The notes beneath the pieces were generated by a model. It did not search any database and was not told the origin of the DNA. It saw only the letters and a program-made list of their open reading frames with translations. Source: SAR116 cluster bacterium AG-355-O21 (GTDB lineage Bacteria > Pseudomonadota > Alphaproteobacteria > Thalassobaculales > Thalassobaculaceae). Taken from it: a stretch of 64,000 bases of DNA. Location: assembly GCA_003280605.1 (NCBI GenBank), contig QCEM01000010.1, positions 1 to 64,000 of the forward strand. The letters run 5' to 3'. How positions within the stretch are numbered: the first letter of the stretch is position 1; each line of letters begins with the position of its first letter. Position numbers and translations under genes: made by a program. Of this stretch, positions 17,424-20,410 are shown piece after piece.

Positions 17424-18411
17424 GAGCTGAGGCAACCTGCGCTACCTCGGTAATCCCGTTGACTTCGGTGTTGGCGATTTTAATGGGGGGCGTTGGCGAT
17501 TTTAATGGCGATGGCGTGGACGATATTGTCTTTGCGGGGCCATCGTGGGACAGGTCCAGTTGGGATAGGAGTGCGTTGTCACCCATCGGTGTGTCATCAA
17601 ACGGCGTTGGGTCCTTCGGTGTTTCAGTCCCCAGTCACCTCACCAAAACAATTCACACGGTACATTGAAACTGGTGATTTAACGGGAAATAGCCGAGACG
17701 ATTTTTTCTTCTTTGACTCCGGGCATGATGTTGACCCTTTTGCGGGCGGGTTGGCATGGCCGCGCCGTCCATGTCTTTAGGAACAATGATGACGGCACCT
17801 TCAGGGACGAGACATCGAGCCGTATTCCAAATGGCGAAAATGTCGCTGCTAACGGCCAATATGTGCCCGATCTGGAACTGACGGATTTTAACAATGATGG
17901 GCACCTGGACATCTGCATGATTTACGGCTCCATGGAGCAAGCCAATCAGCGAGCCTATGCAGGGGGCCCGGTAACGAACATTGCAATTTTGATGCCGAAC
18001 GACGGCGCCGGAGGTTTTTCTTTTCTTACGGGTGAGAATATTGGTCTTGGCAACAGCCGCATGCTTCCTGTGACTGGCGGGTATATCCACCACGACATTG
18101 GCATTTATGCGCCTGCCGGCGAATACCAGAACTGGCAAGGGGGCTCACAGCTCTATTTTATGTCTGGTCGTTACAGCACCGCCAAAAACCGTGAGGATGG
18201 TGCGACCTTTGGTGCTGCCGACTTCAATGAGGCCTATTACCTCAACAGCAATGCTGATGTGGAAGCCCTTGTCACCGGCGGCCAGTTAGCGTCTGGCCTT
18301 AACCACTATCTGATGGTGGGAAGATCGGAGGGGCGTTTAGGGATGGCCAGGAGCCGACATTCAATAATTATGAAAAACGCGAAAAAATTTATTGTATTTT
18401 ATTTAAATTAG
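17424..18411 (+). pseudogene. Decayed FG-GAP/VCBS repeat protein
   Basis: Reading across three frames gives pieces of one FG-GAP repeat protein: VGDFNGDGVDDIVFAGP (about 17490-17545), YIETGDLTGNSRDDFFFF (about 17660-17710) and LTDFNNDGHLDICMIYG (about 17880-17930). The C-terminus has the DFNEAYYLNSNADV...GLNHYLMVGRSEGR module common in large secreted alphaproteobacterial proteins. A 22-base tandem duplication at about 17469-17512 (GTTGGCGATTTTAATGG twice) explains one frame change. No start with a credible upstream frame remains; a TGA precedes the first fragment. It lies directly before the FG-GAP flagellin and may share ancestry with that insert. Confidence 0.75.
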
Positions 18412-18472: not shown

Positions 18473-20410
18473 ATGACGATGATATCAACAAAATACGCGA
18501 CCGTGTCTCTGGTTCACAACGTTGCCGAGGCAGCACACAATAAAGCCAATAGCGGTGCCCGTCTGACCACCGGCCTGCGCGTCGCAAATGCCCGCGACAA
18601 TGCCTCAAGCTTTGCGATCGCCCAAGGCCTGCGCAGCAAGATGCGCGGTCAAACAGCCGTCTTGCAAGGCATCAACAGCACCAAATGCGCCATGAAAACG
18701 GCCCTGGCCGGTGCCAATGCAATTGGCGAAATTTTAGCTCAAATGCGGGCCAAAGCAATTGAAGCATCAAGCCCTGGGATCACCAATAGGCAAAAGGATA
18801 GCCTCACAGACCAACTACGGGATCTCACGCTGCAGATCGATCAAATCGCCACCAGCGCCCGTTTCAACGGCATCAATCTCTTGGTGGAAAGCCGGTCGGA
18901 TTTGGATAGCAACACCTTTGATGTGAGCGCGCAACTTAGCACATCAAGGCCATCACTCGCAGCTGCCGGCGACGTTGACGGCGATGATGATATTGATTTG
19001 GTGTACAGTAACTCGACGAACGAAATCGCGTTGCTGAGCAATGATGGGAGCGGCACATTCACCGCCAGCGATTTACAAGCCGCAACTGGCAGTACGGCCT
19101 ATACCCGTCCAGTTTTGGCAGATTTTGATGGTGACGGCGACAATGACCTCGTCATGGGTATTTACACCTCGGCGGCGAGCGGTTCGGCCGCTGAATATTT
19201 TGAAAATGACGGCAGCGGAGCATTCACAAGCACCGGTGTGATCGCCGACGCGCCGGCACGAAACGGCGCGTCTGGCCAATTCAACGAAGACCTGATGAGC
19301 GGCGATATCGACAATAATGGTCGCCCAGATCTGGTCTCAATCGACCAAAACGGCAATCCTGTGACGCTGCTTTCGAACGGTGACGGCAGCTTCACGGGGG
19401 TTACCTCCACCCTGTCGCCGACGCTCTCCGACAGCGACGGCAATGGTATCCTGACCACGGGCTTCAGCATTGGTGACGTCGATGGTGACGGTAATATCGA
19501 CATTATGGTGCAGGACCAAGACGGTGATCAAATGATCCTCGGTCTTGGAGATGGCAGCGGTGAGTTTGATTTCTCAAATGGTAAAACCGTTGCATTGGAC
19601 AGTCAGGTGCAGACCGCGCATCTGTCTGATCTCGACAATGACGGTAATCTTGATCTGCTGGTCGCCCGTTACAATTATCTGGAGACATTCACCGGCGACG
19701 GCAACGGTAACTTTACCGAGGTTGAGGAGCTGGCGACCGATGCGGTGCATCGAACAAACGGATTGAGTGCCGTTGCCGATCTCAACGATGACGGCATCAA
19801 AGATTATATTTCCTCATCACGAGACGACGCTACGGTGAGTGTTTTTCAAGGCGACGGCGACGGCAGCTTCACCCTGGCCGAAAACATCAGCGTTTCAGGG
19901 CGCGGCTTCGGCGTTTCCAGCGGCGATTTTGACGGCGACGGGGCGACCGATTTTGCGGTTGGGACGAATACTGGCGGCACCGTTGATATTTTTCTCAACG
20001 CCAATCCTGACAGCGTGAATACCGCCCAAACCGTCACCGTTCTTACCTCGACCGATGGTGAAAGCCAGACCATCACCTATCAAAGCATGCAGGCTCATAA
20101 CTTCGATTTGGATTGGGAGACCATTAAAGAAGACCCAAGCGGCCAATTGGCCACCATCGAAGCCGCGATCATCCGCCACCAGAGGCAGGTTACAAACCTT
20201 GGTGCCGAATTGCGCAACCTTGAAGCCAATCATGACTTTCAGAGCCAGATCGCAGATGCGACAGCATCGAAAGTCGGCAATATGGTTGACGTTGATATCG
20301 CCCGTGAGGCCGCGGCTTTCACCGCCGCCCAGGTTCGTGAACAATTAGCGACGCAAAGCTTGTCGATCGCCAACGACCAGCCACGCCTGCTTCTCAACCT
20401 ATTTCGTTAG
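18473..20410 (+). CDS. Flagellin with a central seven-repeat FG-GAP/VCBS beta-propeller
   Basis: A 645-residue flagellin-type protein. Residues 1-145 are the flagellin N-domain (MISTKYATVSL, RLTTGLRVANARDNASSFAIAQGL). Residues 540-645 are the C-domain, ending with DVDIAREAAAF and QSLSIANDQPRLLLNLFR. These coiled regions build the filament core. The variable centre (about 160-512) is replaced by seven D-x-[DN]-x-[DN]-G-type calcium-loop repeats near residues 167, 217, 278, 335, 386, 436 and 485, spaced 50-60 residues, the number and spacing of an integrin-like seven-bladed propeller. Translation may start at Met3 (18479). No signal peptide is expected, since flagellins leave through the flagellar export system. 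The insert should be displayed on the filament surface, for adhesion or ligand binding (inference). Confidence 0.88.
   Translation: MTMISTKYATVSLVHNVAEAAHNKANSGARLTTGLRVANARDNASSFAIAQGLRSKMRGQTAVLQGINSTKCAMKTALAGANAIGEILAQMRAKAIEASSPGITNRQKDSLTDQLRDLTLQIDQIATSARFNGINLLVESRSDLDSNTFDVSAQLSTSRPSLAAAGDVDGDDDIDLVYSNSTNEIALLSNDGSGTFTASDLQAATGSTAYTRPVLADFDGDGDNDLVMGIYTSAASGSAAEYFENDGSGAFTSTGVIADAPARNGASGQFNEDLMSGDIDNNGRPDLVSIDQNGNPVTLLSNGDGSFTGVTSTLSPTLSDSDGNGILTTGFSIGDVDGDGNIDIMVQDQDGDQMILGLGDGSGEFDFSNGKTVALDSQVQTAHLSDLDNDGNLDLLVARYNYLETFTGDGNGNFTEVEELATDAVHRTNGLSAVADLNDDGIKDYISSSRDDATVSVFQGDGDGSFTLAENISVSGRGFGVSSGDFDGDGATDFAVGTNTGGTVDIFLNANPDSVNTAQTVTVLTSTDGESQTITYQSMQAHNFDLDWETIKEDPSGQLATIEAAIIRHQRQVTNLGAELRNLEANHDFQSQIADATASKVGNMVDVDIAREAAAFTAAQVREQLATQSLSIANDQPRLLLNLFR

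Follow-up and report, generated by a model that had tools for sequence, protein, structure and literature searches.

A flagellin with a seven-bladed FG-GAP propeller in its surface position, and its recurrent relatives

Flagellin ends and the propeller between them

We have asked whether a gene in the 64,000-nt stretch of DNA analysed here (the window) encodes a flagellin whose variable region is a beta-propeller, and what such a domain might do on a filament. The gene is a single intact open frame of 645 aa at 18473..20410, coordinates and frame being exact, on the + strand as are all of its features given below; its identification is based on the open frame, Pfam and a search of its own genome. 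The preliminary description, made from this stretch of DNA, read flagellin domains at both ends, and Pfam bears this out, as Flagellin_N (residues 4-139, E 3.6e-19) and Flagellin_C (residues 560-644, E 4.7e-8) both match the encoded protein, P0001, above cut-off. The N-terminal D0/D1 helices occupy residues 1-139 (18473..18889), the first 140 residues matching flagellin residues up to ~137, and the C-terminal D1/D0 helices occupy residues 546-645 (20108..20407). Among solved structures, the C-terminal half is closest to the Caulobacter flagellins FljK, FljL and FljM, which are ~273 aa long and, unlike P0001, lack an outer domain; P0001 residues 521-645 match FljL residues 145-272 with E 3.6e-21. 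Because this alignment breaks at 140/521, P0001 jumping from residue 140 to 521 where FljL passes from ~140 to 145, the propeller is a clean insertion where D1 would otherwise end outwardly in a short loop. Ordinary flagellins of the same genome, 277-297 aa in length, have ~40 residues between their end segments compared with 407 in P0001. A cleavable signal peptide is absent from P0001.

The genome encodes canonical flagellins, FlgK and its own FlgL; its gene content and closest flagellins point to membership of the Alphaproteobacteria. Identity of P0001 as hook-associated FlgL or FlgK is ruled out, as flagellin models outscore FlgL (NCBIfam, 1.4e-17 versus 6.8e-5) and blastp with P0001 against its own genome matched that genome's flagellins at 6e-25 and did not match FlgL. 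Combined with a D0/D1 tree calculated without FlgL, the blastp result indicates that P0001 groups with the ordinary flagellins of its own lineage and not with FlgL. The FlgL reading is less clearly dismissed for the paralogue P0002, in which the FlgL-model score nearly equals the flagellin-model score.

Between the flagellin ends, residues 149-512 (18917..20008) correspond to a seven-bladed FG-GAP beta-propeller. Pfam FG-GAP_3 matches six stretches of P0001 (E 9.2e-40 for the whole protein), and seven calcium loops of the DxDxDG type are present, D167-D175 (18971..18997), D217-D225 (19121..19147), D278-D286 (19304..19330), D335-D343 (19475..19501), D386-D394 (19628..19654), D436-D444 (19778..19804) and D485-D493 (19925..19951), with successive spacings of 50, 61, 57, 51, 50 and 49 residues. 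A strict regular expression finds six of these because the first, DVDGDDDID, is degenerate; its Asp columns are invariant across alignment A3, and FG-GAP_3, searched against the genome, gives matches that begin exactly at all seven loop codons. Thus, seven repeats at residues 160-512, as initially described, are correct in count, place and spacing, the 50-60 residues given for the last measuring 49-61. A chance repeat or misread frame is ruled out by the Pfam E-values, the loop alignment and the relatives. Calcium-loop residues are kept in the alignment of P0001 with its relatives, and the propeller of P0001 is strongly acidic, with 64 D+E versus 10 K+R, and devoid of tryptophan.

Structure prediction, proposed at the outset as a check on the repeats, returned a propeller of 27 strands together with a short candidate closing strand. 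In the AlphaFold2 model of P0001, built with 27 aligned sequences, the propeller is located at residues 160-510 with pLDDT mostly 85-96, flagellin helices are observed at 2-33, 40-98, 105-128 and 548-644, and the linker returning to D1 (residues 513-545, 20009..20107) is of low confidence (pLDDT <50), Caulobacter flagellins aligning from residue ~520. The strands are grouped 4-4-4-4-4-4-3, and a two-residue strand at 150-151 would complete blade 7. This short strand falls within residues 147-155 (18911..18937), a segment that may act as the 'velcro' strand closing blade 7. It reads NTF, much as each FG-GAP repeat ends on an outermost strand beginning with GTF, and nearly all relatives have a comparable NTF/GTF-like motif ahead of loop 1. 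A fusion from another phylum, L024, was modelled with 28 strands and a propeller mostly at pLDDT 90-98, the strand at E174-177 occupying the closing position of blade 7. The models cover P0001 and L024. Strand assignments and motifs suggest that the ring of seven four-stranded blades is closed in both modelled proteins. Foldseek associates the ends of both models with flagellar filaments and their centres with the propellers of integrin alpha-V, the PVL/AAL2 lectins, KICSTOR and the LGI1-ADAM22 complex. TM-scores are modest, ~0.5-0.78 for the propellers depending on the target, in part owing to the use of entire two-domain chains as queries. Profiles, both AlphaFold2 models, the Foldseek matches and many relatives give strong support to an architecture in which flagellin ends carry, at the surface position, a single integrin-like propeller of seven blades.

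Relatives and origin of the fusion

Propeller flagellins are a recurrent class, which extends beyond what could be seen in the window. Searching for flagellin-FG-GAP fusions, a course suggested in the preliminary description, revealed a second copy in the same genome (P0002, 625 aa, contig C33), a third in the same-genus genome G001 and >100 further relatives, which together rule out a single odd gene or assembly chimera. The G001 copy (L016:5430-9422) is ~1,330 aa long, with several repeated modules between its blades, some of which resemble modules of the window-genome FlgK (E 2.7e-7) and FlgL (E 0.005). Within the window family (36 genomes), the fusion is confined to the window genus. A scan of GTDB genomes detected at least two further fusion genomes, the Deltaproteobacteria MAG UBA2409 and Co_bin.265, which belong to one candidate phylum of the former Deltaproteobacteria. 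Of the 46 genomes of this phylum examined, 20 give matches with E of at most 1e-60 and 19, on our reading of the match table, carry near-full-length fusions, corresponding to >100 near-full-length genes; the match in the twentieth, G424, lies inside the propeller only. Co_bin.265 encodes ~20 propeller flagellins among 36 Flagellin_N matches in a 4-Mb genome (G062). Four of these genes lie head to tail, and in its arrays (L133, L134, L137, L142) some copies are a few bases apart, set among housekeeping genes. Both genomes of the alphaproteobacterial order that includes G155 contain fusions, one of them three in tandem. Further full fusions were not found in 385 alphaproteobacterial and 398 Pseudomonadota genomes sampled, two to three candidates being scored per genome. 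The fusion census is at least these counts, and most other contig-search matches (L025-L102) are FG-GAP proteins.

All five further members subjected to Pfam contain Flagellin_N, FG-GAP_3 and Flagellin_C above cut-off. Among 38 fusions including P0001, the regular expression finds seven loops in 29, six in 6 and eight in 3; six-loop fusions usually have one degenerate loop, and the eighth loop is probably a spurious match. Separately, very long open frames of ~3,900-4,700 aa (G422:C60, G062:C14, G515:C76, G596:C173) were observed in the UBA2409 phylum and other Pseudomonadota, with propeller-like FG-GAP matches limited to the middle of the model.

The origin of the architecture was examined in a tree of D0/D1 segments from 60 proteins. 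Fusions of the window genus lie beside ordinary flagellins of the window family (100/100), although two window-genus sequences are long branches of unsure placement, those of the G155 order lie beside that order's ordinary flagellins (99/95), and those of the UBA2409 phylum beside that phylum's (89/96). As the fusions sit with the flagellins of their own lineage, the architecture originated or was transferred on at least three occasions, and the propeller either entered flagellins repeatedly or moved between flagellins. At least five changes of fusion state are needed, which disfavours one ancient, vertically inherited fusion, bearing in mind that the tree reflects kinship of the ends and not of the propellers. 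End branches of 0.73, 2.25 and 1.96 for P0001, P0002 and the G001 copy, respectively, indicate diverged D0/D1 in the window-genus fusions, and the D0/D1 of the window gene evolves faster than that of the same genome's ordinary flagellins.

Predicted role of the propeller on the filament

On balance, the window gene probably encodes a flagellin whose variable region is a closed seven-bladed calcium-blade propeller displayed on the filament as a ligand-binding fibre. P0001, without a cleavable signal peptide, would be exported through the flagellar type III system and its D0/D1 would polymerise together with the genome's ordinary flagellins, every propeller subunit showing one propeller on the filament exterior. 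Extracellular Ca2+ would fill the 1-2 loops on one propeller face, stabilising the fold, and the opposite face, composed of the 2-3 loops and blade-connecting segments, would bind a surface ligand, whether glycan, protein or particle; this face is expected to be the most variable part between paralogues, as diversifying selection would predict. With low-affinity sites repeated along its length, the filament would bind with high avidity, and the set of paralogues would offer a range of specificities on a common core. We infer that the protein is assembled into the filament, with an adhesive or ligand-binding role; the propeller is most likely a surface-displayed, calcium-stabilised ligand-binding domain that differs between paralogues. 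Such a subunit, polymerising in thousands of copies, would multiply weak propeller binding, so that the motility organelle would serve for attachment or sensing at long range. The expansion to ~20 genes in one candidate-phylum genome suggests that these filaments may work as displayed binding arrays.

Textbook Salmonella values for rise and protofilament number give a filament spacing of 52 Å axially and 34-51 Å laterally at a radius of 60-90 Å. With a propeller of 51 x 27 Å, as in AAL2 (PMC4483166), this geometry allows room for one propeller per subunit. The propeller diameter is also near the axial subunit repeat, so that propellers could touch along a protofilament, as would be expected if the propeller were an element of filament architecture and not a receptor, one that thickens, stiffens or screens the filament or makes propeller-propeller contacts, with Ca2+ tuning stiffness. 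Outer-domain dimerisation modulates motility in other flagellins (PMC8931119), giant flagellins form thick filaments in marine bacteria (PMC6248924) and blade number is constant in nearly all copies, all of which are consistent with this architectural role. We consider it unlikely, as it leaves unexplained both the ~20 copies kept by one genome and the divergence between neighbours, Co_bin.265 copies on one stretch being 67-96% identical at their ends but 31-39% in their propellers.

FliG and sigma-54 are encoded in the window, neither adjoining the propeller flagellin gene, which lies outside any flagellar cluster; its neighbours encode an enzyme of the MmgE/PrpD family and a membrane protein of the YdjM family. 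Neither a Shine-Dalgarno sequence nor a promoter of the sigma-54 or sigma-28 type could be recognised clearly upstream of the window gene. This and the fast-evolving D0/D1 of the window genus call for mild caution about the window gene; together with a decayed FG-GAP gene directly upstream, they would be compatible with a protein not assembled in quantity in the window organism, whether a decaying or minor paralogue, one that leaves the cell but does not polymerise, or one resembling a junction or cap protein. That P0001 is poorly assembled in any of these ways is nevertheless distinctly improbable, as the 645-aa frame is intact, the C-terminal D0 is well kept as judged from the FljL match, the genome has its own FlgL, and the paralogue on C33 has a sigma-54-like site 62 nt before its start, one mismatch from consensus (shuffle p 0.005). 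A MotA/TolQ/ExbB-type gene (L017:9184-9858, G000:C33; PF01618 E 4.3e-8) adjoins this paralogue.

The decayed upstream gene (17455-18411, +) consists of FG-GAP fragments that lie in differing frames and include a short locally duplicated stretch near 17470-17500, followed by an open 232-aa piece (FG-GAP_3 E 4.9e-7) that ends in a YYLNSNADVEAL...LNHYLMVGRSEGR module. In the window genome, intact FG-GAP_3 repeats are restricted to the two flagellins, this decayed gene being the one occurrence elsewhere. Its candidacy as propeller donor was rejected, as similarity is weak (E 2e-6, tblastn, one short sequence) and such as FG-GAP generally gives.

Returning to filament display, the arrays show how paralogues differ. 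Across 13 Co_bin.265 fusions, mean identity is 0.76 at the N-terminal end and 0.72 at the C-terminal end versus 0.35 in the propeller. Taken alone, the amino-acid pattern of kept ends and a variable centre could result from the usual structural demands on a flagellin. In most pairs, fourfold-site identity of the propellers is close to the 0.27 expected at random, whereas some pairs are 0.75-0.81 alike at the C-terminal end; for neighbouring copies in L137 (G062:C45), fourfold identity is 0.75 at the C-terminus, 0.27 at the N-terminus and 0.30 in the propeller. This mosaic, involving few sites, is suggestive of recombination between paralogue ends. A tentative extension of the display reading is polymorphic display, in which filaments of the candidate phylum, and of two or more lineages of Alphaproteobacteria, share a core that carries interchangeable calcium-propeller receptors; propellers would be exchanged or would diversify, and recombination would meanwhile maintain the similarity of the ends. 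This is possible and, if true, a single cell could present a range of binding specificities along its flagella. The least probable of the three alternatives, antigenic or phage-receptor variation, by which propellers would diversify to evade phages, grazers or hosts with no positive ligand, fits a highly divergent surface domain on constrained ends, the fourfold contrast above and tandem arrays that invite recombination, but the window genome has just two copies, and arbitrary sequence has replaced neither the seven-blade fold nor the calcium loops. With this recurrent and expanded class, the long-open question of the purpose of flagellin surface domains becomes testable, as a predicted well-folded domain is available in dozens of natural variants on one scaffold.

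Comparison with known systems

In common with integrin alpha and other FG-GAP 'calcium blade' propellers (PF01839, PF13517; PMC3123361), the domain has seven blades, FG-GAP profile matches and a DxDxDG loop between strands 1 and 2. Unlike in integrin alpha, the propeller is borne by flagellin ends and not by a membrane receptor, and the loop is present in 7/7 blades compared with three in integrin alpha-V (table in PMC3123361). Fold, blade count and, as predicted from strands and motifs, strand-shifted closure are shared with the PVL/AAL2 lectins, AAL2 having the same one-strand offset between sequence repeats and blades (PMC4483166), and PVL-type lectins are among the highest-identity Foldseek propeller matches (18-20%). 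The GlcNAc pocket of PVL-type lectins has the motif N/D-x5-GG-W in a connecting segment (PMC4483166); N-x5-GGW was found in none of 38 propeller flagellins, which rules out a PVL-type GlcNAc lectin. Giant flagellins of marine gammaproteobacteria similarly bear a very large surface domain on normal D0/D1, but their inserts, unlike the propeller, are domain-extension repeats that match annotated flagellins only (PMC6248924).

Within the open-access literature, nothing was found that links flagellin with FG-GAP or such a propeller, papers naming both being unrelated reviews. The initial impression that the fusion class is undescribed has thus held in that literature, including the ten most frequent domains of a 2017 survey of flagellin surface domains, and the class is apparently undescribed. 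Sialidases are themselves propellers. That survey, by Eckhard et al., reports 61 flagellin surface domains, the ten commonest of which include vWFA and sialidase and not FG-GAP (PMC5595980). Flagellinolysin filaments bear an active surface enzyme (PMC5595980), a precedent for a functional domain on the filament, and the HExxH metallopeptidase responsible has no counterpart in P0001, in which the Pfam scan detected no peptidase family. Propeller flagellins resemble flagellinolysin-type flagellins (PMC5595980) in that a folded domain of foreign origin fills the hypervariable region between the N- and C-terminal helices of flagellin, in being scattered across phyla and in that they may coexist with ordinary flagellins. 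They differ in having a calcium-blade propeller in place of the metallopeptidase, and in their large paralogue arrays.
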